Source: Dysidea avara (lineage: Eukaryota; Porifera; Demospongiae; Dictyoceratida; Dysideidae). Taken from it: DNA of 64,000 nt. Made by a program: the position numbers and the translations under genes. Position 1 is the first letter of the stretch. Each line of letters begins with the position of its first letter. The stretch lies in NCBI RefSeq assembly GCF_963678975.1, contig NC_089280.1:15970780-16034779 (forward strand), in the 5' to 3' direction. Below the pieces are notes generated by a model that did not search any database, was not told the origin of the DNA, and saw nothing but the letters and a program-made list of their open reading frames with translations. Of the stretch, positions 6,504 to 57,812 are shown one piece after another.

Positions 6504-8132
6504 TTACAAGGGGGGGAGTGTGTTCCAGAGTCTGATTGTAGAATGGAAAAAGGAAAATTTATAAGAGTCAATCATAGTGACAAGCTGTTTATAATATCCT
6601 TCCCTTGATGGACGATGATTAGGTATTAGATCATTTGTAGGTATACTTAGATTGCCATTAATTATCTTATACATTGTAGTTATCTTAGATTTGTTTCTTC
6701 TTTCTTTGAGGGTAGGTAAATTTAATGATGACATCATTCTTGTTACACTACTAAATCTAGAAAAATTATTGTAGCAAAATCTAGCTGCTCTCCTTTGGAT
6801 GGATTCAAGTTGATTTATGTTGGTGTGGGTGTGGGGTGCCCAGACAGAGGATGCATATTCAACAATGGGGCGGACCATCATCTTGTAACAATTTTTCTTA
6901 ACAGAAACAGGGCATTGGTGAAGATTACGACGCAAAAATCTGGTTTGCTTTGCTAGTGACTCTTTGAATGTGTTCATTCCATGATAGTTTCTGGTCAATG
7001 GTGACCCCAAGATATTTTGTGTGAGGAACCTCAGAGATGATAGACTTCTCCAGATGATAGCTATAAATGATGGGATTTCTTTTATTGGTAATTCTCAAGT
7101 GTTCACATTTCGTAATGTTAAATTCCATCAGCCAAGTATGAGCCCATTCAGTAAGTTTGTCAAGGTCCTGTTGTAGGGTTATACAATCAGATTCGGAATG
7201 TATGTAGGAGTACAGTAGGACATCATCTGCATACAATTTAACTTTATTATTGACACAAGCAGGGAGATCATTTATATACAATAAAAACAGAAGTGGCGCG
7301 AGTACAGTACCTTGGGGTACACCAGAGAGAACTTGTTTAGAGTAGCTGTTTTTCCCTTCTAGCACTACATACTGGGATCTGCAAGTTAAAAAGGACTTAA
7401 TCCACAATAGGATAGATCCATCAATCCCATAGTGTTGGAGCTTGAGGTAGGGTCGGGAATGTGGAACCTTATCAAACACGGCCTTACTAAAGTCAAGTAG
7501 AAGTACATCACATTGGCCCTTTGATTCAAACACTTGGCAAAGTCTTTTACCGTGGAAATTAATTGTGTTTCACAACTCCTTTTGTGACGGAAACCATGTT
7601 GTTCATCGCATAGAATGTTAAAGGATGTTAAATGATTAGATACACTTGAATATACTATATGCTCTAATATTTTGCAGCAGATACTCGTAAGGGACACAGG
7701 TCTATAGTTGCATGGGTCTGATTTATTACCTTTCTTATAAATAGGAACTACCTTCGCAGTTTTCCAGATACTTGGTAGTGTACCTTGATCTAAAGAAGCC
7801 TGGAAGATCAATGATAAGGCTGGGGAGATTTCATATGCCACTTCTTTAAGAAAACGAACAGGAAGGTTGTCAGGCCCGGGTGCCTTATGTTGTTGGATGT
7901 TTGATAGTAGATGGTATATGCCATCCACATGTATCTGAATTGGTGGTATACTAGGTGTTGGATCAGTACTTAGTGTAGGAAGGTGAGTGACATCTTCATT
8001 GGTGAAAACAGATGAGAAATAATCTGCTAAGAGGTTTGCTTTGTCTGTAGCATCCACAAATGTTTCACCCTGATGTTTGAGGGTGCCCACTCCAACAGAA
8101 TCTTGCCTTTTATTCTTAATGAAAGACCACAA
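6504..8132 (-). pseudogene. LINE copy 1 ORF2, reverse transcriptase part
   Basis: Overlapping frames (7386-8132, 6925-7533, 6504-7010) together cover a reverse transcriptase and its C-terminal domain. Visible motifs are Tyr-Arg-Pro-Val-Ser-Leu-Thr, Leu-Asp-Phe-Ser-Lys-Ala, Gly-Val-Pro-Gln-Gly-Thr-Val-Leu-Ala-Pro-Leu and the catalytic Tyr-Ala-Asp-Asp. The C-terminal part has the Pro-Ile-Val-Glu-Tyr-Ala-Ser-x-Val-Trp-x-Pro motif and ends with the usual Arg-Leu-Trp-Asn-x-Leu-Pro. Frame breaks near 7510 and near 6990 interrupt it. Confidence 0.85.
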
Positions 8133-8239
8133 ACGTTTAGTAATTGTGTTCTTGTTAGGATCAACAAGATTGGATACATATCTTTAAAAGCTGTACAACA
8201 TTCGCGCTGGGACTGTCTTTTGAGATCGTAATACTTAGA

Positions 8240-9211
8240 CTAGTCTGTTGGTAGGTTAGAACGTCTAGCTTGATTGTATGCACGCTGCTTTCTGCGGGTC
8301 AGCCTCTTAATATAGTTATTGATCCAAGGGTACTTACATTTGGAAGAAATTAGTTTGATTGGGACTGAATCCATACAGGTATTACAAATGGACAGAAATT
8401 CATTCCATAAAACATCAACAGGAGTCGAAGTTGAATAGTTATTGAGAAAGTCCTCACAGAGTGTTTGAATGTTACTTCGGATAATGTTAAAGTCAGCTTG
8501 GGCCCACAGATAGATTATTCTTTTAGATGGAGAGGAGAGGTTTGCTACAACGGATGAGACAACAAGAACTGCTTCATGATCACTGATACCATCTACGGTG
8601 TCACATGTCTCAACTAAAGAAGGTCTGTTGGTTCTGAAAACGTCTAATATGTTTGGACCTCTAGTGGGTGTGTTGACCATTTGACTAAGTGCATTGTCAT
8701 TAAGGAAATCAAGGAAGGAGTTGTTTAGAGTGACAGGATAAGAGTGACTGGTGGTGCAATTATTTACCCAGTTTATATCAGGAAGGTTAGTGTCTCCTGC
8801 AATCCATAAAGCAGAATTGGGGAATTTCATATGAATAGCTGTAAGTTGTCGACAGAGTTCTGCTAGGTAAGATTCATCACTAGAAGGTGGTCTGTAAACT
8901 GAGCAAGCAATAAGTGATGATTGATCTGCTAGTTGAATATGACAAGCCACTAACTCACAAGACAAGGCAGTGAGATGAATATCATGAGTAGTAAAGGTAT
9001 CACGACAGGCAACAAAAACATCACCATAGCCGTTGGCTCGGTCTTGACGATAAACAACATAACCACTTGGAAAGCCTTTACTGTTCTTTATACTAGATTT
9101 GAGCCATGATTCTGTACCAAAATTAACATCAGGAGAGTGAGTATTAATTATATTCTGAAAGGATTCTTTCTTGGAAACCAAATATTGACAATTTAGTACC
9201 AGAGCAGTCAA
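8240..9211 (-). pseudogene. LINE copy 1 ORF2, APE-type endonuclease part
   Basis: A 323-residue frame with the exonuclease-endonuclease-phosphatase fold of LINEs: Leu-Asn-Cys-Gln near the start, Thr-Glu-Ser-Trp-Leu (catalytic Glu), Ser-Val-Tyr-Arg-Pro-Pro, Ala-Gly-Asp-Thr-Asn (catalytic Asp-x-Asn) and Ser-Asp-His-Glu-Ala (catalytic Asp-His). It nicks target DNA to prime reverse transcription. The frame stops at 8240, where copy 2 reads on into the reverse transcriptase, so copy 1 is broken here. Confidence 0.88.
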
Positions 9212-9457
9212 AAGGTGGGATACATCACAGTCAGTAGAAGTAAAATCAATTGGGGAAGGGGGTATAGGATTATCAGTGCGGGAGGGGTTTAAGTGTTCCT
9301 CCGCACTACTTTCCCATTTTTTATCATATAAACATTTTCTGACTTATTCATGTCAGCCAGTTGTTGCTTCAGTGCTTTGTGTTTCTTTTGTTCAAGTGGG
9401 GTAAGATCTGGTGTTATAAACAAGGAACGGATATTTGGTGGATTTGTGGTAGATCTG

Positions 9458-24087: not shown

Positions 24088-24601
24088 CTTGATTGAAAAT
24101 ATGATTGCAACAAAATGAGTTAGTTTTACTATGAACTGTTATAACTCAACACATAAGTGCTGCTTTATATATGTAAAGGTATACTTTCCCTGGGACACCA
24201 TCAATTTACCACTTCCTGTCACACACAATATGCAAGTTTACAAAATCACCTTTACCATTGCAATTCAGTTTCATGGAAATTGATATTGTACTTGCTGTGA
24301 GATGCATTATTCCATTATGTTATCAGTGTGAGATTGTGCTGCTTGTTGTTCAGAGTATGTGACTGAATTTTAAAAATTTACGAAAGTGGGTGCATTCAAC
24401 ATGTCAAAGATTTAGCTCTTAAAATGTTAAATATACCTACACATAATTGTGGATAGAATTGATAATAAATATCTTTGATTGTCTCAGAACACCATGTAAT
24501 TAAAATTCTAATTGTTTCATACATGCCAACATTACACATTTGTTGTTTAATTTGCTTTTTGCAATAAGCACCTTTTTTGTCAAAGGAAATTAATAATTTA
24601 A

Positions 24602-25250
24602 GGGTGCTCTGTACAGTTCGTACAAGGCTTCCCAAGACATAGTCTGTTTTGCACTAAAAGAAATATTATGGTCACTTAATTCGTCTGTGACATGTTGACA
24701 CATTTTAGTACCCATAAATTAGGTATCCCATAGCAACAAGTGCACACATCTTGCTATTCTACACCCTCTCACTTAAATTAGAACTACTCCATCATTTTTA
24801 ATCCAATGGACATGAAATTTCACACAAGCTACTTTAGTAATTTTGCCAAAGAAGAGCGTTTACCATTTTTAAATAGCAAGTTCAGATGATGAATAACATG
24901 GAAGTAAAGAAAAGGATTTCTGGGAGTGACAACCCGAAAGATAAATATGTGATGAATGAGAAGCTAAAAGACAAAAATAAAAATGCACAATGGTTTGTGC
25001 TGTTTAGCATAGTGTATCATAAAAGTATCAAGGCTCTTGTGCGAAAACTGTAGGTCTAGTTCTAGTATAAAGGGAAAAACTGTAACTCATGTTCTAAAGC
25101 AAATTTAGCAGTTGGGTTTGGACTAAACTGTGTACTAGTGTTAGCTTATATCCAGTAAAAAAGTACAGAGCATTTGCTAAAACCATTTGTAAGTTATAGA
25201 ACAAATTAAATTTCATAGGAAGCCATATAAGCGGACTGTACAGAGCACCC
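24602..25250. mobile_element. TTAA-flanked MITE (piggyBac- or Kolobok-like), 649 bp
   Basis: The ends GGGTGCTCTGTACAGTTCG and CTGTACAGAGCACCC are inverted repeats, with TTAA on each side (24598-24601 and 25251-25254). The homologous flank of Ig copy C (about 38800-38825) has the uninterrupted sequence, so this is an insertion made after the duplication. No transposase is encoded. Confidence 0.85.
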
Positions 25251-25734
25251 TTAATACCTTACTGGAGTGTATGGTAGTTATTACCCAGCCAATAGCCACC
25301 ATACATCTCAAGTAAATTCTTTGAAGTGTGGCTTCACTGGAATATTAACTATGTAAGGAACTAAATAATGGGCTACAGTTACACATATGTACAGTTTTAA
25401 ATGTATAAATCCCTCAAATTTAATCATTTTTATTTGGGTGCATGTATCCTTGCAAATTGTTTGAGAATATTGTCAGAATTGAGTTTTATTTCTTCTTTGA
25501 ATGATTACATGTTGTACCCATTGATCTTTTAAAGTACAGTATTGACAAAAAATAGTGACACAGATATACATTTGTAGTTATCTGGTGTTTTCCCCAGTAA
25601 TGATATGTATGACACGTATGCTTTAGGTATACAACTGTAGTAGTTCAGTACATAGTTTTACTTGAAGGGTAACTATATGCTTATTATATACAATAATAAT
25701 AATGGGAACCAATGACCATGAATGCTTTATACAG

Positions 25735-26803: not shown

Positions 26804-27742
26804 ATATGCTTTTAATGATATAATCAACTGATAAATTGGAACTCTGATCCATGTGAATTGCAAACATTAGAGATAAGCACAGTACTTTAGGATATGAAAA
26901 TAAATTGCTTGAAACTGAGAAGCAAAACAGCAAAATTAACTCCATCTTTACAAACAAAATAACTCTTCCCTGACCAAAATGACTGCTATGCCCTTATCAC
27001 TTGGCACTAAACCTGCTGATCAAGCTGCAACTAACTCTATGTATTCACCAATAGCCTTGGGGCTTTTCTACATTGGAATTTGTCTCTTTACATTAATGCA
27101 TACATAGGTGTAGCCTTTTCCTTACAGGTATATAAAATTATAAGGATATAGCATTTATGTTTGATTATCAGTCTATATATGATGTATTTATTATCAAAGA
27201 GATATGAACACAAAAATTATTAGTGGTGAACATAATACAGTACACATTCACATGCACTCACAAATGAATAACATTAAAATAGTGTGCAGACCTGAAGGAG
27301 TATAATAACCATGTGACTAAACATATGAGTCAGCTGATCACAATCCGGTACTAGAGGAAATCATATTCACACACTCATTCTGTCACAAACAAATAAGAAC
27401 ATAACTCTCCAAACATGTGATTATCACACATACAAAATAAATACATTTACATTTTACTTGTTATAAGAAATATTACACAGTATACTAGTTAATTGTGTAG
27501 ACCTTTCCATTATTCTGAAAACTACAGCAATTATATCCACTGTCCACAAACATATGACTCAACCATAATGACCTTGTCATAATTATTTCTTTTGTGTTCT
27601 TGTAGATAAATATAGAACAATAGAAGTCTGGTTAACCAAATATTTGTGGCTCTATCACTTGTATGACTTCTCACATAATAATTTTAATACATTTAGTTCA
27701 GTTAGTTTGGTCTAGCTGGTATTTTGGTAGCAATACAAAATT
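26804..27742. other. Upstream region of the 1428-residue gene
   Basis: No gene or repeat recognised. A pyrimidine-rich AG at about 27590-27605 (TTGTGTTCTTGTAG) could be the acceptor of a 5' untranslated exon. No clear TATA box was found. Confidence 0.45.
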
Positions 27743-30700
27743 ATGCTCATTGTCATTTTACTACTGATCTTCTTCCAAGATATTGGAATTGAGGCAGATG
27801 TAGAAGGTACTAGTTCAAGTATTCAGGATACACTTGTTGGTACAGTCAGTAATAATAGCATTATTAATATCACAAATACAACTGTTCTGTCTTCAATGGT
27901 GGTATTAAAATATCTTGAGAACATTTTAATTGTTGGAGACTCCATTGATTGTAACAGTAATGGATCAGTAAAGTTTGTATCGTGTAAAAATGTCACCATT
28001 GAAGGTGTCAGGTGGGAGCAGTGTGGTACTCTGACTAATCCTGCAATTGGCTTTTATGATTCATCTAATGTTAAAATCCAAAATTGTTCATTTCATCGCT
28101 CGACAGGTCAAGCTGTTGTACTATCAAAAGTGTCAGGAAACGTGTACATTAACAATTGTCAGTTTACACACAACAATGCGTATGAAGGACAAGGTACAAC
28201 CATACACATCTCTCAATCTAAACCTCATGTTCAGCTACATGTGGTAATTGATAAGTGCAACTTCACTGTAAATGGACCAGCTGAAAGTGTTGTTTGTGTT
28301 GATGGAATACCAAACCACAATAACCTGCAGCTGACTACAAAAAATTCTGTATTTATGCAAAACCAAGGAGTACCCATTTATATTTCACACACCAATCTTC
28401 ACCTCAATGATAGTGTATTATTTGAACAGAACAAAGCCAGTAATGGTGGAGGCATTTATAATAATCATTCTAGTGTCATATTCAGTGACAGATCTAATGT
28501 GATTTTCAGCAGAAATTCTGTTCAGAATAACGGTGGATGTATTTTCCTTAATGACTCCAATGTCTTATTTACAGGAAATTCAACCGCAGAATTTACAGAC
28601 AACAATGCATCAGAGGATGGTGGTGCTGTGTTTTCTAACAGTCGGTCTAATATCTTTTTCAGTGACAACTCCACAGTAATATTTAGTAACAATTTAGCTC
28701 TTGGTAAAGGAGGAGCTGTGTCCTGGAGAAGTTCATTTGTTACATTTCTTGGAACTGCAGGTGCGAAATTTAGTGGAAATATTAGAAGTGCTGTTTATAC
28801 CTCACAGAACTCTGTTATTTCATTTGATGAAGGCTCAAATGTTACATTTAGCCATAACAGTGGCACAGAGGGTGGAGCCCTATACTTTAAAAATACTGGT
28901 GGTGTGTTGTTTAATGGGAGCACTTCAGTAACATTTATTAATAACAGTGCAGAGGCAGGTGGAGCCATTTATTTTAAAAAGAAAAGCTACATTGTATTTG
29001 GATTGAGTTCAAAGGTGAACTTCAGTAACAATCAGGCTGAATTAAATGGTGGAGCTATAGCATCTGTTAGTAGCACTAGTATTTTATTTACAGGAAATTC
29101 GTCAACATCGGTTACCCATAACACAGCTGGACAAGATGGTGCAGCTATTTACTCCATTTTGGAGTCCAGCATTAAATTCATTGATAGATCAATTGTTTCT
29201 CTGCAGAATAACACAGCTATGCAGCATGGTGGAGCCATATTTTCATTTAGAGGGAGTGATGTAACTTTTAAGGCAAACGCTGTAGTAACATTTAATTACA
29301 ACGTGGCTGAAGAAAGAGGGGGAGCGGTGTATTCAACCAGACAATCTAAAATCTATTTTAAAGGTAATTCTCACACAGCATTCACTAACAATAAAGCTCA
29401 TATTAGTGGTGGGGCTATAGCTTCTAGTTATGATGGTATTGTCCATTTTGAGAAAGATTCAACTTTAACCTTTTCCAACAATAGCTGTACATTCTTTGGT
29501 GGAGCTTTTAATATATATTACAACTCCACTGCTGACTTCACACAACTTACTAACATAACATTTCAGAATAACACCGCAATATTTGGTGGAGCCATGCGTG
29601 CTTATGACAACAGTATCTTCACAATTAAAGGAAGCTCTACCCTTACCTTTGTTGGAAACAAAGCTATCTATGATGGCGGTAGTATATTTTGTGGCCGTAC
29701 TTCTGATCTAACACTGAAAGGAAATAGTTTGGTTACCTTTACTAACAACACTGCTCGAGATGGCGGAGCAATTTCTATTCTCCAATCAAATATAACATTT
29801 GCAGGAAATTCCTCTATTCAATTCATGTATAACAAAGCTTATGAGCGTGGTGGAGCCATATATCTTGATGATAAGTTTATCCTATCAGTCAATGATAGCT
29901 CAAACATTAGATACTTGTTTAATTATGCTGATCGATATGGTGGAGCTGTATATGGTAGTGTCATTCAAAATAACGATAGTAAAATGACAGTTGATAATTC
30001 AACATATACTGATTTCAAGAACAACACTGCCTCAGTAGGTAATAATGTTTACATAAATATGCTAACTTCATGTGATAAAATATGTCGTGATGAAATCATG
30101 GTGGATAGTACTGATGGCACTTTCAATCGTAGGCACTTTACTAATCATGTCATTACTCCATTCAGTAAACTGGTATTGTATGATCCAGCTGAGTGTGTTA
30201 ATCACACAAGTCATACCAACAATTCTGATATGAATTACTGCCCTAATAATAAGTATCAAATTAAAAACGTAATGCTTGGACAAGAAATTATAATTGATGC
30301 TTGTGTACTGGACCACTTCGATAACAATGCCAGTGCAACACAATTTGCACTAAAAAGCAACAATTCAGAATATCATATTGATGGTCCTAGCTTTATATTG
30401 ATATCATGTGACATGCTTCAAGGAATTAAAATAAAAGGAAAGAAAGTATGTGATCTTCTAAATGTTTCGGTATTAATTGTGTCACATGTTAATAGTCTTA
30501 ATCAAGAAAAACTTGTAATAGAACTAATAACTGAACTATCGCCATGTCACCCTGGCTTCCACTATAACAATACATTGCATCATTGTGAGTGTTACGATAA
30601 GACTAGTATTGTATCATGTTCTGATGATCATACATCAACTATCAAAATAGGTTACTGGTTTGGTACTGGACCAGGTAATGGTGAAGCAACGGTGTCAGTT

Positions 30701-32029
30701 TGTCCTGACAATTACTGCAATTTTTCCTGTTGTGAAACTGCTAATGGATACTACCAACTTTCACCAGCAAGAATGAATCAATGTAGTTCACACAGATCTG
30801 GTACTGCTTGTGGTAGTTGTGAAGAAGGCTATACTCTCTCGTTTGATTCTGTACAATGTGTAAATGTTAACAAGTGTACAACTGAACAGACAGTAATGGT
30901 AGTTACATTATCAATGATATACTGGATAGTCATAGTTATTGCAGTGTTTATCATGTCGTACTATCATGTTGGGATTGGTTATTTGTATGCTATTACATAC
31001 TATTACAGTATGCTGGATATTCTACTGAGCCAAAATTTATACCAATCAAAGGGATTATTTACAGCTGTAAGCATTGTCTCCAGCTTAGCTAAAATCACTC
31101 CACAATTTCTAGGACAGCTTTGCTTAGTAGAGGATATGATAGGAATTGACCAACAGTTCATTCATTATGTACATCCACTAGCTGTCTCAGTAATAATAGT
31201 AATAATCTGTCTATCAGCAAGAATATCTCTCAAGTTTTCATCATTTATTAGTAGAGGTATTATCAGTACTGTCTGCATGCTACTGCTCTTATCATACACT
31301 TCTGTGGCCACAACTTCATTATTGTTACTGAGATCACTGAGATTTGATAGTGGGGATAAGGTGTATATTTACACTTACCTATCACCTGACATAGAATACT
31401 TTCATGGTCATCATCTACCATATGTTATAGTAGCAGTGTTATGTACACTAGTGATTGTGACTGGTCTACCACTTCTACTACTACTAGAGCCATTCCTTAA
31501 CCACAAGATCAACTTCATCAGGATGAAGCCATTACTGGATCAGTTTCAAGGATGTTACAAAGACAAGTATCGTTGCTTTGCAGCTTATTACATGATTTGC
31601 CGCATATTGATCATTGTGATAATTATAATTGCAAACCCTTCTGACTATGTAAACGCCCAATTTTTGTTAGTTGCTGCAAGTATGATATTGGCCTTAATAC
31701 AACTAATAGTAAGACCATATGAAAGGAACATTCTCAACATCTTTGATGGTTTTGTTTTACACGCAATGGCCTTGGTAGCAATGACACCACTTATTAACAA
31801 TTATAATCAGTATTTTCTGCTATCGATTACTTACATTCTAATAATGTTGCCTTTAATAGTTTTCACTCTAATGGAACTGTTCATAAACAAGCATGCTATC
31901 AAGAAAATAACTAAACGATTATGTCACAAGCCTAACCTCACTGCCAACTATCCTGCTCATAATGATTATTGTTATGTATCTGTTGGTGATTATGTTGCAC
32001 CAAAGAATGTCATCATGTTGAATATGTAA
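27743..32029 (+). CDS. Large beta-helix receptor-like protein with multi-span membrane region
   Basis: This is a single exon of 1428 codons. Residues 1-18 form a signal peptide. Residues about 20-760 are a right-handed beta-helix. From about 233 to 740 it carries some 17 repeats of about 30 residues with Gly-Gly-Ala-Ile/Val and Phe-x-x-Asn, the pattern of chlamydial Pmp repeats, with very many Asn-x-Ser/Thr glycosylation sites. A Cys-rich EGF-like stalk follows (about 930-1045). Nine or ten membrane spans then lie between about 1050 and 1380. These include Pro-Leu-Leu-Asp-x-Phe-Gln-Gly-Cys-Tyr-Lys-Asp-Lys-Tyr-Arg and a later Arg-Pro-Tyr-Glu-Arg-Asn, which resemble membrane modules seen next to such ectodomains in sponges and protists. 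The cytoplasmic tail is about 45 residues. The start Met is preceded directly by an A-rich context and gives the signal peptide. It is probably a surface receptor or adhesion protein; the ligand is unknown. Confidence 0.9.
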   Translation: MLIVILLLIFFQDIGIEADVEGTSSSIQDTLVGTVSNNSIINITNTTVLSSMVVLKYLENILIVGDSIDCNSNGSVKFVSCKNVTIEGVRWEQCGTLTNPAIGFYDSSNVKIQNCSFHRSTGQAVVLSKVSGNVYINNCQFTHNNAYEGQGTTIHISQSKPHVQLHVVIDKCNFTVNGPAESVVCVDGIPNHNNLQLTTKNSVFMQNQGVPIYISHTNLHLNDSVLFEQNKASNGGGIYNNHSSVIFSDRSNVIFSRNSVQNNGGCIFLNDSNVLFTGNSTAEFTDNNASEDGGAVFSNSRSNIFFSDNSTVIFSNNLALGKGGAVSWRSSFVTFLGTAGAKFSGNIRSAVYTSQNSVISFDEGSNVTFSHNSGTEGGALYFKNTGGVLFNGSTSVTFINNSAEAGGAIYFKKKSYIVFGLSSKVNFSNNQAELNGGAIASVSSTSILFTGNSSTSVTHNTAGQDGAAIYSILESSIKFIDRSIVSLQNNTAMQHGGAIFSFRGSDVTFKANAVVTFNYNVAEERGGAVYSTRQSKIYFKGNSHTAFTNNKAHISGGAIASSYDGIVHFEKDSTLTFSNNSCTFFGGAFNIYYNSTADFTQLTNITFQNNTAIFGGAMRAYDNSIFTIKGSSTLTFVGNKAIYDGGSIFCGRTSDLTLKGNSLVTFTNNTARDGGAISILQSNITFAGNSSIQFMYNKAYERGGAIYLDDKFILSVNDSSNIRYLFNYADRYGGAVYGSVIQNNDSKMTVDNSTYTDFKNNTASVGNNVYINMLTSCDKICRDEIMVDSTDGTFNRRHFTNHVITPFSKLVLYDPAECVNHTSHTNNSDMNYCPNNKYQIKNVMLGQEIIIDACVLDHFDNNASATQFALKSNNSEYHIDGPSFILISCDMLQGIKIKGKKVCDLLNVSVLIVSHVNSLNQEKLVIELITELSPCHPGFHYNNTLHHCECYDKTSIVSCSDDHTSTIKIGYWFGTGPGNGEATVSVCPDNYCNFSCCETANGYYQLSPARMNQCSSHRSGTACGSCEEGYTLSFDSVQCVNVNKCTTEQTVMVVTLSMIYWIVIVIAVFIMSYYHVGIGYLYAITYYYSMLDILLSQNLYQSKGLFTAVSIVSSLAKITPQFLGQLCLVEDMIGIDQQFIHYVHPLAVSVIIVIICLSARISLKFSSFISRGIISTVCMLLLLSYTSVATTSLLLLRSLRFDSGDKVYIYTYLSPDIEYFHGHHLPYVIVAVLCTLVIVTGLPLLLLLEPFLNHKINFIRMKPLLDQFQGCYKDKYRCFAAYYMICRILIIVIIIIANPSDYVNAQFLLVAASMILALIQLIVRPYERNILNIFDGFVLHAMALVAMTPLINNYNQYFLLSITYILIMLPLIVFTLMELFINKHAIKKITKRLCHKPNLTANYPAHNDYCYVSVGDYVAPKNVIMLNM

Positions 32030-46845: not shown

Positions 46846-46925
46846 CTTAGGCCATACCTATTGGATCTTATGTTGCGCGGGCCCGACCGACTGTCTTTTT
46901 TCATAACCTAAAATGATAATGATAA

Positions 46926-46947
46926 TCACGTGATTTTTGATCACGTG
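46926..46947. promoter_or_regulatory. Two E-boxes CACGTG just upstream of the 300-residue gene
   Basis: CACGTG at 46927-46932 and 46942-46947, 8 and 23 bp before the ATG. A TCACGTGA palindrome also precedes the genes at 48519 and 60890 (mirror distance 50-60 bp). They may bind bHLH factors. Confidence 0.55.
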
Positions 46948-46954
46948 TTCTAAT

Positions 46955-48033
46955 ATGGCTTCTAACTCGTGCGCGTGGTTAAGCGTGATTGTAAAAGAAG
47001 GGCTGAAGCTTGTACAGCGTTCAAAAATAATCAGTTGTAATTGGGAAAACTCTTTTGGTGATTTACTTTCGAAGTCGTACAGCACAGAAAGAAGAGTTGT
47101 AAAAGTGGAGATCTCCCAGACTGATCAATTTTTGTCTACCCACGAGGTTTGCTTATATAGCTATATAGCTAGGGCTATATTACTATTATTATTGAATTAT
47201 GTATGTATGTGAATGTTATACAGTAGAATACAGTTATTAAAAGGTATTTAATATTTATAAATCATATAGCTACTCACTGTATTATGCCATGCGAACTTCA
47301 TTTCCTGTGCCTTTCATAAAAGGTCAGCATTGATGCCCCAGTGTTTCTCTGTAATCAGTTTCATTGCAAGTTTGTATGCTTTACATTGGAAGATAATAGA
47401 AGTGTGAGCACTTCTTTGTCCTGTACACACAGTGGAGACAAACCTAACGCCTTCCAGGTTATGATGTCTGCAGCTCACAAGACAGTGTTACCCCGACCAT
47501 ATGATGAACAGCCATTGAGAGGTGATCATGCCATTTACAATAAATTACTTGAACTGTTGAACAGCAGAAACTTAGGATGGAGTCCAGGTATTGTTGAAAC
47601 CACAGGTATAAAGTTTTTGAAGGCCCTTACAGATTGCTTGTGGATGCTGGATCCACATCATGATCAATTTTCCTCACGAGCTTACATAATCCCAGAAGTT
47701 TTTCTGGGTTTACAAATTGATTACTCGAAGCTGTATACCTGTGGTTCTGAATTATTTCCGCCAACTTCATGCCGCTATGACTTGATAGTTACACGTGCAG
47801 CTCTGATATGCAGTGATTCCATTGAAGTACAATATTACAGTGCAACGCTCGTATCGTTTCCTCTAATCTGTTACTTTTGTGGCTTACCAGATGGACTGGT
47901 CAATGATGATTCCATCAAAGAGTTACGCAAGCAATACGCTGTTGTACGGCCAATCTGTTTTTTGTGTAGATCTAGTGGCAAAAGGCCTGCCACTAGACAA
48001 CCTAATAATATGAAGAAGCAAAAGAAAAACTAA
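46955..48033 (+). CDS. 300-residue Cys-rich nuclear-type protein inside a TIR element
   Basis: Two exons, 46955-47146 and 47323-48033, phase 0, with donor GAG/GTTTGC and acceptor ATAAAAG/GTC. The ATG at 46955 is chosen because it is followed by an open exon and directly preceded by two E-boxes; an upstream in-frame ATG at 46937 overlaps the second E-box. The 300-residue product has an N-terminal region with no recognised domain. A motif Asn-Ala-Phe-x-Val-Met-Met-x-Ala-Ala-His follows (about residues 110-120). Near the end come two Cys pairs, Cys-Tyr-Phe-Cys and Cys-Phe-Leu-Cys, spaced as in a treble-clef zinc site. The tail is Lys-Arg-Pro-Ala-Thr-Arg, then Lys-Lys-Gln-Lys-Lys, a classic bipartite nuclear import signal. 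It is intact. The function is not known; no transposase or nuclease motif was found. Confidence 0.82.
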
Positions 48034-48455
48034 AACCATACGTATAGTTACATAGGTTCATTTTTGGTAACAAATGCTTTCGTATTTGTATTGATGTACC
48101 ATGCTTTATGTAGTTTGAATTTTAAAGTTTAGTAGCCATGTACTGTGATACTTTTTATGTTTACATTAAATAATACTATTGAAAAAACTATCATTATCAT
48201 TATCAAATCGACCTACCTACCCATATTTTTCAAGGTTTCGCCCGTGCAACATAAGATCCAATAGGTATGGCCTTAGTTATCTGTAGTTGTGACGTGTCTG
48301 CCTCCCACTGTCACGCAATCCGTCTCATGAATTCACTACTACAGTACCGTATTTATTAGCTTATTACCGGGCTGCTATATAAGCTTTTGCTTTTCAAATC
48401 AATTGTGGTACCATCGCGCACACCCTCTATGATCACTCGCTGCCTTAGCTAGTAT

Positions 48456-48518: not shown

Positions 48519-49089
48519 ATGGATTGTGAACTGTGCTGTAATGAGGCTGCAGATTTTCTATGCTATGACTGCAGTCCTGAAGGAAGGCCTCTTTGCAGCA
48601 GTTGCTCAGAATTATTACAACGTAACCCCAAAAGAACTGGACATTCACTGGTGAGTCTTATACCTCATGAATCTTCATACAAAATTAAATAATACTGTGT
48701 TGTGTGCATAGGTGCCTGTAGAAGAGAGTCCCAGCACCTGACTGCCCAGCACCAACACTGTTAGTTCTCAGAGCTCCCATCACAGTAATGATTCTTTGAA
48801 TGGTGCCGAGGCCAGTAAAGTTTTAATTTTAGTTGAATCTTTTTCGCTTCTCTCCTTTTATCCGTATCAGAAGTCCATCATTGATGCTGTACTGGACATG
48901 AAGAACACAATCATTATCCAATCTACTGGAAATATGAAAAGTCTTTGCTTTCAATTCCCACGTCTGGTCCTGGATGCCAACTTTGTCAGGCTAGCTCCTA
49001 TAATTATAAATGAAGGGAAAAACATTCGGGATTGGATCTCAGTATTTGATCTCAGAATGGAACCACTGTACCACCATGGTAGCTACTGA
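48519..49089 (+). pseudogene. B-box zinc finger / RecQ-like helicase, broken
   Basis: Exon 1 (48519-48650, phase 0, donor GTGAGT) encodes a B-box-like finger: Cys-Glu-Leu-Cys, Cys-Tyr-Asp-Cys, Cys-Ser-Ser-Cys and a closing His. The next exon starts after GTGTGCATAG at 48712 but meets a TGA after nine codons. Beyond it the frame is open and reads like the start of a RecQ-type helicase: Phe-Tyr-Pro-Tyr-Gln-Lys-Ser-Ile-Ile-Asp-Ala-Val, then Thr-Ile-Ile-Ile-Gln-Ser-Thr-Gly and Lys-Ser-Leu-Cys-Phe-Gln-Phe-Pro. In the ATP-binding motif I the usual Gly-Ser-Gly-Lys-Ser is replaced by Gly-Asn-Met-Lys-Ser, and the helicase core breaks off after about 90 residues. Stop, lost motif and truncation all say pseudogene. 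Confidence 0.72.
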
Positions 49090-54625: not shown

Positions 54626-54943
54626 TTGTCAGCACTTCAAACCTACCTAGGCCTATCTGTATCAATCACCAATGCTTTCCGACTAGGGAAAAGATCTGAT
54701 AAGCCAAGACTTTTGAAAGTGTCTCTCAGTTCCACTCAAAAAAGAGCTTCTATCCTAAAGAACAAAACAAAACTCAGATCTACCACAAATCCACCAAATA
54801 TTCGTTCCTTGTTTATAACACCAGATCTCACCCCACTTGAACAAAAGAAACACAAAGCGCTGAGGCAGCAACTGGCTGACATGAATAAGTCAGAAAATGT
54901 TTATATGATAAAAAATGGGAAAATAGTGCGGAGGAATACTTGA
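54626..54943 (+). pseudogene. LINE copy 2 ORF1, C-terminal part
   Basis: 105 codons: Arg-Leu-Gly-Lys-Arg, Pro-Arg-Leu-Leu-Lys-Val, then a basic helix and Phe-Ile-Thr-Pro-Asp-Leu-Thr-Pro-Leu-Glu and Leu-Arg-Gln-Gln-Leu. It is the RNA-binding C-terminal half of the LINE ORF1. The N-terminal PHD finger and coiled coil are not in this copy. The stop overlaps the ORF2 start codon by four bases. Confidence 0.7.
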
Positions 54944-57812
54944 ACCCCCTCCGCACTGATAATCCCATACCCCCTTCCCCAATTGATTTTACTTCTACTG
55001 ATTGTGATGTATCCCACCCTTTGACTGCTCTGATATTAAATTGCCAATCTTTGGTTTCCAAGAAAGAATCCTTTCAAAATATAATTAATACTTACTCTCC
55101 TGATGTCATTTTTGGTACAGAATCATGGCTCAAGTCTAGTATAAAGAACAGTGAAGTCTTTCCAAGTGGTTATGTTGTTTATCGTCAAGACCGAGCTGAC
55201 GGCTATGGTGGTGTTTTTGTTTCCTGTCGTGATACCTTTACTACTCATGATATTCATCTCACTGCCTTGTCTTGTGAGTTAGTGGCTTGTCATATTCAAC
55301 TAGCAGATCAATCATCACTTATTGCTTGCTCAGTTTACAGACCACCTTCTAGTGATGAATCTTACCTAGCAGAACTCTGCCGACAGCTTACAGCTATTCA
55401 TATGAAATTCCCCAATTCTGCATTCTGGATTGCAGGAGACACTAACCTTCCTAATATAAACTGGATAAATAGTTACACCACTGGTCACTCTTATCCTGTT
55501 ACTCTAAACAACTCCTTCCTTGATTTCCTTAATAACAATGCACTTAGTCAAATGGTCAACACACCCACTAGGGGTCCAAACATATTAGACGTTTTCATAA
55601 CCAACAGACCTTCTTTAGTTGAGACATGTGATACTGTAGATGGTATCAGTGATCATGAAGCAGTTCTTGTTGTCTCATCCGTTATAGCAAACCTCTCCTC
55701 CCCATCTAAAAGAATAATCTATCTGTGGGCCCAAGCTGACTTTAACATTATCCGAAGCAACATTCAAACACTCTGTGAGGACTTTCTCAATAACCACTCA
55801 AGTTCAACTTCTGTTGATGTTTTATGGAATGAATTTCTGTCCATTTGTAATACCTGTATGGATTCAGTCCCAACCAAACTAATTTCTTCCAAATGTAAGC
55901 ACCCATGGATCAATAATTACATTAAGAGACTGATCATGACCCGCAGAAAGCAGCGTGCATACAATCAAGCTAGACTTTCTAGCCTATCAACAGACTGGTC
56001 TAAGTATTACGATCTCAAAAGACAGTCCCAGCGCGAATGTCGTACAGCTTTTAATAGATATGTATCCAACCTTGTTGATCCTAATAAGAACACAATTACT
56101 AAACGTTTGTGGTCTTTCATTAAGAATAAAAGGCAAGATTCTGTTGGAGTGGGCACCCTCAAACATCAGGGTGAAACATTTGTGGATGCTACAGACAAAG
56201 CAAACCTCTTAGCATATTATTTCTCCTCTGTTTTCACCAATGAAGATGTCAGTCACTTTCCTACGCTAAGTACTGATCCAACACCTAGCATACCACCAAT
56301 TCAGATACATGTGGATGGCATATACCAACTACTATCCAACATCCAACAACATAAGGCATCTGGGCCTGACAACCTTCCTGCCCGTTTTCTTAAAGAAGTG
56401 GCATATGAAATCTCCCCAGCCTTATCATTGATCTTCCAGGCTTCTTTATATCAAGGTGCACTACCAAATATCTAGAAAACTGCGAAGGTAGTTCCTATTT
56501 ATAAGAAAGGTAATAAATCAGACCCATGCAACTATAGACCTGTGTCCCTTACATGTATCTGCTGTAAAATATTAGAGCATATAGTATATTCAAGTGTGTC
56601 TAATTATCTAACATCCTTCAACATTTTATGTGATGAACAACACGGTTTCCGTCACAAAAGGAGTTGTGAAACACAATTAATTTCCATGGTTAATGACTTT
56701 GCTAAGTGTTTGAATCATAAGGGCCAGTGTAATGTACTCCTACTTGACTTCAGTAAGGCCTTTGATAAGGTTCCACATTCCCGACTCTACCTCAAGCTTC
56801 AACATTATGGGATTGATGGATCTATCCTATTGTGGATTAAGTCCTTCTTAACTTGCAGATCCCAGTATGTAGTGCTAGAAGGGAAAAACAGCTACTCTAA
56901 ACAAGTTCTCTCTGGTGTACCCCAAGGTGCTGTACTCACACCACTTCTGTTTTTACTGTATATAAATGATCTCCCTGCTTGTGTCTATAGTAAGATTAAA
57001 CTGTATGCAGATGATGTCCTACTGTATTCTTACATACATTCCAAATCAGATTGTATAGCCCTACAACAGGATCTTGACAAACTCATTGAATGGGCTCATA
57101 CTTGGCTGATGGAATTTAACATTAAGAAATGCGAACACTTGAGAATTACCAATAAAAGAAATCCCATCATTCATAGCTATCATCTGGAGAATTCTATCAT
57201 CTCTGAGGTTCCTCACACGAAATATCTCGGGGTCACCATTGACCAGAAACTATCATGGAATTAACACATTCAAAGAGTCACTAGCAAAGCAAACCAGGTT
57301 AATGGATTCTTGCGCCGTAACCTTCACCAATGCCCTGTTTCTGTTAAGAGCAATTGTTATAAGATGATGGTCCACCCCATTGTTGAATATGCATCCTCTG
57401 TCTGGGCCCCCACACCCACACCAACATAAACCAACTTGAGTCCATCCAAAGGAGAGCAGCTAGATTTTGCTACAATGATTTTTCTGGATTTAGTAGTGTA
57501 ACAAGAATGATGTCATCATTAAACTTACCTACCCTCGAAGAAAGAAGAAACAAGTCTAAGATAACTACAATGTATAAGATAATTAATGGCAATTTAAGTA
57601 TACCCACAAATGATCTAATGCCTAATCATCGTCCATCAAGGGAAGGATATTATAAACAGCTTGACACTATGATTGATTCTTATAAATTTTCCTTTTTCCC
57701 TTCTACAATCAGACTCTGGAACACACTCCCCCCCTTTGTAATTCACTCCCCTACCTTAGATGAGTTTTGTACTAACCTGAATATTCATTATGATCACACC
57801 TGTGCACAATAA
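54940..57812 (+). pseudogene. LINE copy 2 ORF2, endonuclease and reverse transcriptase
   Basis: Frame 54940-56475 gives the complete endonuclease (Leu-Asn-Cys-Gln-Ser, Thr-Glu-Ser-Trp-Leu, Ala-Gly-Asp-Thr-Asn, Ser-Asp-His-Glu-Ala) and the start of the reverse transcriptase. A TAG at 56473 stands where copy 1 has Trp. The frame continues to 57264 (Leu-Asp-Phe-Ser-Lys-Ala-Phe-Asp, Gly-Val-Pro-Gln-Gly, Tyr-Ala-Asp-Asp), where a TAA replaces Glu. A shift near 57410 then precedes the C-terminal part (57507-57812). Not functional. Confidence 0.88.

Follow-up and report, generated by a model that had tools for sequence, protein, structure and literature searches.

The element at positions 46850-48272 of the window, by which we mean the whole 64-kb stretch of DNA analysed here, very probably derives by internal deletion from a 3.81-kb cut-and-paste DNA transposon present in the same genome and is itself non-autonomous, as judged by sequence comparison of its copies. 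Internal-deletion derivatives are an already well-known kind of element. The apparently intact gene carried by the window element is, according to the same comparison, the outcome of two cancelling changes and was found in three of six short copies.

The window element is 1423 bp long and encloses a two-exon gene model of 300 codons. Its 33-bp terminal inverted repeats (TIRs; 46850-46882 versus 48240-48272) are mismatched at 1 of 33 positions, and the inverted match extends to 37 nt at 95% because the flanking TTA reads nearly symmetrically. Allowing up to 3 mismatches, the 27-nt TIR core is found at two places only in the 64-kb window, both of which are the element ends. Two such matches occurred in 0 of 100 window shuffles, which places the repeat pair far beyond chance. 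A size of 1423 bp, TIRs of this length that differ at one position and a TTA at either flank had been proposed in an earlier note on this DNA and are borne out by these counts. An exact match to the TIR core was not found in viral_contigs. The ends of the window element are common to copies of 3.81 kb, 1.42 kb, 0.65 kb and about 0.45-0.53 kb. The features of the element are, in window positions:

46847-46849, no strand: left target-site duplication TTA (sequence; 3-bp duplications match in 24/24 two-ended family copies)
46850-46882, + strand: left TIR, 33 bp, starting GGCCATACC (inverted-repeat search, mismatch count)
46912-46926, + strand: subterminal (GATAAT) repeat with an inverted copy at 48189-48205 (low complexity; role only putative)
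46926-46947, + strand: two E-box motifs, TCACGTGA at 46926 and CACGTG at 46942, directly 5' of the ATG (motif scan)
46955-47146, + strand: exon 1, residues 1-64, counterpart of exon 1 of the parent transposase (splice model, copy comparison)
47147-47322, + strand: intron, 176 bp, GC 0.27 (splice model)
47323-48033, + strand: exon 2 of the derivative, residues 65-300 and stop (splice model)
47699-47703, + strand: T-run, one T shorter in L001-L003 (3/6 short copies), by which the frame is open (copy comparison)
47714-47716, + strand: deletion junction, parent residues 196-990 absent, one extra A at the join (copy comparison)
47869-47880, + strand: CxxC pair 1, residues 247-250, both Cys invariant in the four-sequence family alignment
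47956-47967, + strand: CxxC pair 2, residues 276-279, both Cys invariant in the four-sequence family alignment
47980-48030, + strand: basic, nuclear-signal-like tail, residues 284-300 (putative function, from composition)
48165-48170, + strand: ATTAAA, possible poly(A) signal (motif scan)
48240-48272, - strand: right TIR, 33 bp (inverted-repeat search, mismatch count)
48273-48275, no strand: right target-site duplication TTA (sequence)

The 300-residue model is one among 21 stop-free GT-AG exon pairs (255-319 residues, the range tried) and was picked on splice context; the splice model is thus a prediction from the DNA sequence, made independently of transcripts. The 237-codon open stretch is longer than the longest (171 codons) in 1000 first-order simulated sequences, and both E-box motifs are also present in the 3.81-kb copy L032. 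As a gene model, the previously described two-exon frame of 300 residues with intron, E-boxes, two Cys pairs and a possible poly(A) signal therefore stands. No convincing relative of the 300-residue protein was found in Pfam, PHROGs or PDB (none at all in PHROGs), and for the exon-2 protein none was confirmed in the prokaryotic and viral collections. Three weak PDB matches of the short protein to SecA were rejected, as was Zn_ribbon_10 (E 0.15, under the family cut-off), which disappeared with the 300-residue form.

To place the element in its family, the window's own assembly (550.8 Mb, 108 contigs) was searched with a 1424-base query. Since 40 of 399 candidates were scored, all copy counts are lower bounds. 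The short form is represented by at least six copies of 1419-1424 bp (L001-L006, L001 being the window element), which match the full 1424-base query at 99-100% and each carry a matching 3-bp duplication. Over their 1423 bp L001 and L002 show no difference; both are on one contig, at a distance of about 251 kb, with TTA flanking the former and TAA the latter. Among the 29 family loci examined for ends, 24 were two-ended at the criterion used and 5 were without one end. All 24 two-ended copies show matching 3-bp duplications, namely TTA/TAA (20/24), CTA/TAG (2), CAA/TTG (1) and AAA (1).

Longer copies match the query in two separate blocks, 1-866 and 868-1424. At least four of them (L031-L034, 3807-3811 bp) have the same TIRs, are 98.2-98.9% identical in both blocks and contain about 2.4 kb extra, while L035-L040, L045 and L046 are larger, rearranged or broken copies. 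L032 retains exon 1, its exon 2 is open for 1032 codons (splice-edge codon included), and the splice model of the window element yields a 1095-residue protein with no stop; L031, L033 and L034 end prematurely at 481, 320 and 902 residues. Compared to the longer coding copies, the window element lacks one block of the interior between the shared ends. Counted on L032, residues 196-990 are gone, i.e. 795 codons or 2385 nt, so that the window protein consists of parent residues 1-195 (the last four altered) and 991-1095. The middle part is present in the relatives L060 (49% identity), L059 (35%) and L061 (35%); the long form is thus ancestral and the window form a deletion.

The reading frame of the short form has a history of its own. 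Due to the extra A at the join, the deleted form is out of frame and stops after 196 residues, as is read in L004-L006. L001-L003 have one T fewer in the T-run, which lies 11-16 nt ahead of the join; the frame is thereby open for 300 residues, and the C-terminal four-Cys module is read in frame again. The longer T-run is found in L004-L006 as well as in the 3.81-kb copies L031-L034. L001-L003 also share two further bases that differ from L032 and L004-L006, and thus look like one younger sublineage. Given that three of the six short copies are without the 300-residue frame and that L003 carries an Arg-to-Cys change, there is no sign of selection on the product. The description of the window gene as complete and intact, given in the earlier note, is misleading in that the frame is open only via a second, compensating change. 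The genome search proposed there for other TIR pairs with the same gene yielded at least six short copies, but the 300-residue frame in just three of the six.

Ends and 3-bp duplications of this type also mark two shorter size classes, with at least four copies of 652-656 bp (L041-L043, L051) and at least six of 444-528 bp (L052-L056, plus L044, which is more diverged). Several deletions have thus been mobilised. In the 9 counted of these 10 shorter loci the longest ATG frames span 38-104 codons, flanks included, with no comparable gene, and mobility therefore seems independent of the short protein. We propose that the full-length transposase of an intact copy would recognise the retained ends and move short copies in trans. 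The deletion would have arisen once, in one founder, probably via incomplete gap repair. As the copy comparison shows, the deleted form stops at 196 residues unless one base of the T-run is lost; with this loss, which marks the sublineage of the window element, the C-terminal module is in frame. Less certainly, and by analogy to KP and the P element of Drosophila, a truncated product, were it to be made, could attach to transposase or to the DNA of the element and thereby dampen transposition.

This last step leads to an alternative in which the 300-residue (perhaps the 196-residue) product is a selected regulator that blocks transposition via the element ends or in mixed complexes, as for the KP derivative of Drosophila P elements. 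We consider such a role possible, albeit rather unlikely. The E-boxes near the promoter, exon 1, the model splice sites and ATTAAA are all retained, the four Cys of the kept C-terminal module are invariant in the four-sequence alignment, and the two changes cancel such that this module is read in frame. Concomitantly, the catalytic part of the transposase, with its triad assigned from conservation, is lost and translation through it interrupted; excerpts of PMC12393704 and PMC7776569 describe repression by truncated P transposases in which the DNA-binding domain is preserved. Against this, three of six copies stop at 196 residues without the C-terminal module, the loss of a single base in a T-run is a common accident, the copies differ too little for a selection test, and a Pfam search revealed no known DNA-binding domain in the parts of the transposase kept in the window protein. 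The open 300-residue frame may equally be accidental.

The comparison to P elements is instructive in both directions. As described in an excerpt of PMC7776569, P elements occur both at full length and as smaller non-autonomous copies with internal deletions, and have ~31-bp terminal and shorter subterminal inverted repeats; an excerpt of PMC12393704 mentions a truncated P transposase frame without the catalytic parts. KP and other deleted Drosophila P elements thus resemble the family described here in short non-autonomous copies beside long ones, a truncated frame, and terminal plus subterminal repeats. They differ in that duplications here are 3 bp (8 bp for zebrafish P-like copies in the excerpt of PMC7776569), in that no sequence relation of the transposases was found, and in that here, in 3/6 copies, a second frame change brings the C-terminal module back into frame.

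What was removed by the deletion becomes apparent from the parent transposase. Invariant columns of the four-sequence alignment include DDK, GEP, DHDF, DGGPDHR, SWxN, ER and MS. In the numbering of protein P0002, invariant positions are DDK 526-528, D633 in DGGPDHR and E677 in NxxER, along with Cys 979, 982, 1008 and 1011, which form the two CxxC pairs retained in the window protein. In the full protein the candidate catalytic residues are D589 or D590, D696 and E740, with 106 residues between D589 and D696 and 43 between D696 and E740; from these conserved motifs and their spacing we infer a D...D(43)E-type catalytic triad. All of these residues lie inside the deleted stretch. The earlier statement that the 300-residue protein has no DDE transposase motif was correct, the reason being that the DDE-like core has been deleted.

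Database searches with the parent transposase gave a uniform picture. P0002 and two partial copies matched no Pfam family at E <= 10, a single-sequence search in which the HMMER filters drop most weak matches. Two relatives produced weak Pfam hits only (PB1, HD_assoc_2, zf-CW), none of which is trustworthy. PDB returned no match for the transposase and one weak unrelated match for the profile, and in NCBIfam the transposase gave two weak unrelated hits and matched no transposase model. Neither for the transposase nor for its alignment was a relative confirmed in the prokaryotic and viral collections. Within the genome, the protein search yielded at least 53 matches (44 of 305 candidates scored), among them several long open frames at 34-50% identity. 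Similar unnamed proteins presumably exist in cnidarian and sponge annotations. One transposase family of 35% identity accounts for five matches (C10:12105222, which is L059, C12:14198088, C14:10952905, C11:16348206 and C8:32238344), all of nearly the same score and each with an open frame of 1102 codons, which suggests that another branch of the group has been recently active.

The ends of the relative families were scanned for 20-bp TIRs with equal 3-bp flanks. Single hits were obtained for L059 (GGCCACACC with TAA), L060 (GGCCATACC with TAA) and L063 (GGCCACTTC with TAA). For L062 the sole hit lay elsewhere (TAT), and its GGCCA ends with TAA were located by a targeted look for GGCC, this boundary thus not being a blind result. 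L064, a second copy of the L062 kind, has the same GGCCA ends and TAA on both sides. Under the stricter requirement of exact 12-bp TIRs, no hit was obtained for L059 or L060. Of 400 shuffled-flank controls, 23 had some hit and 0 a hit beginning with GGCCA. Four relatives at about 35-50% identity thereby show GGCCA ends and TAA duplications.

It could be argued that the parent is simply a diverged member of PIF/Harbinger and the window element an ordinary derivative of it, a reading that we regard as doubtful. PIF/Harbinger elements have TWA duplications, TIRs that start with A or G (<60 bp) and a parental length of around 4 kb, and most autonomous candidates have two ORFs, with a Myb/SANT partner (PMC4482050). 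TTA/TAA in 20/24 copies, a TIR below 60 bp that starts with G and a parent near 4 kb agree with this description. Unlike PIF/Harbinger, L032 is filled by one long gene with no Myb/SANT match, and its transposase is without any Pfam match at E <= 10, so that the PIF/Harbinger label is one of TTA/TAA and TIR form only. The earlier designation as PIF/Harbinger-like accordingly holds for a mobile, multicopy TIR element with a TWA-type duplication but finds no support from Pfam for the transposase family. Within the same group (PHIS), NuwaII was considered and dropped. The window site C|TTA|G and the TIR starting with GG fit its description in PMC4482050, but C|TNA|G is absent around most other copies, the 24 copies having mainly TTA/TAA with variable neighbours; C|TTA|G in the window is thus probably local chance.

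Zator / ISAzo13 was compared by description. The two share 3-bp duplications with the present family, these being given for Zator in an excerpt of PMC10045372. In single-sequence searches no Pfam model and no NCBIfam transposase model was matched by the parent transposase. On the Pfam, PDB and NCBIfam searches, the parent transposon may represent an undescribed superfamily. In titles and abstract beginnings of the open-access literature we recognised no paper on the parent group, which is weak evidence. We take the D-GG and S-W-N-x-x-E motifs of the parent transposase to resemble those of Zator / ISAzo13. A more far-reaching proposal combines two claims: that the parent belongs to an unclassified cut-and-paste superfamily (GGCCA termini, TWA duplications, a single long gene, a transposase of ~1000-1160 residues with DDK-D-(43)-E and a C-terminal four-Cys module), and that its internally deleted form has turned into a repressor that spreads itself, with a frame reopened by the compensating loss of one base. 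We put this conjunction forward tentatively, holding it to be improbable as a whole.

Two further readings, both raised by the earlier note, are very hard to reconcile with the copies. Uptake of a host gene between transposon ends, in the manner of Pack-TYPE elements, would account for the exon-intron structure and for a promoter motif found ahead of two nearby genes as well, but the interior is the parent transposon's own sequence, 98.2-98.9% identical in four 3.81-kb copies and joined across the 795-codon deletion, so that capture would hold only if the parent transposase itself had been captured; we deem it highly improbable. The notion of a minimal mobile unit with an unknown protein, in which the 300-residue product is itself the mobilising enzyme, has hardly any likelihood either: it is favoured by near-identical short copies at several sites and by residues 217-234, which form a D...IExQ-like motif that 35 of 20000 shuffles also gave, but the protein is made of the first 195 and last 105 of the parent's 1095 residues, the last motif position is unconserved in relatives, smaller copies that share this type of ends have no comparable gene (38-104 codons, nine loci), and the full-length protein offers a better candidate catalytic core. 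With reference to the PD-(D/E)XK nuclease motif, the assignment of residues 217-234 to that type was rejected, as the pattern was framed post hoc and its last position varies in relatives.

An internally deleted copy of the 3.81-kb transposon, as we prefer to read the window element, is of use in two respects. It points the way to a transposon group that is diverse, seems to have been active recently and goes unrecognised by the profile libraries searched. Moreover, near-identical copies encoding 196 versus 300 residues of a truncated transposase constitute a natural pair, by which repression becomes testable outside P elements.

Some observations concern the surroundings of the element. The palindrome TCACGTGA occurs six times in the window (37851, 43639, 46926, 48455, 60939 and 63640) versus 0.45 expected from simulated sequence. 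At 46926, 48455 and 60939 it lies ~30-65 bases before the likely ATG of the element gene, a B-box gene and a ubiquitin gene, respectively, and on account of this position it may be a host core-promoter motif. The B-box-like first exon (48519-48653, + strand; Pfam match under the cut-off) begins about 250 bases downstream of the element, which sits just upstream of the E-box of this gene. Other mobile sequences in the window comprise a non-autonomous element at ~95-803, whose ends are CATAGGCGGATCT and whose duplication, the 8-bp CAGCTACT, is hAT-like in length, and a short element at 24598-25254 with GGGTGCTCTGTACAG inverted ends and TTAA flanks. A non-LTR retrotransposon is represented by two broken copies that resemble each other, at 6504-9343 (- strand) and 54889-57812 (+ strand); an endonuclease was matched by Pfam for the latter copy, and reverse-transcriptase-like and other parts were recognised by eye. 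Finally, a 1432-codon open frame at 27731-32029 (+ strand) encodes Chlamydia-PMP-type beta-helix repeats; the hydrophobic, apparently membrane-spanning stretches that follow were recognised by eye.
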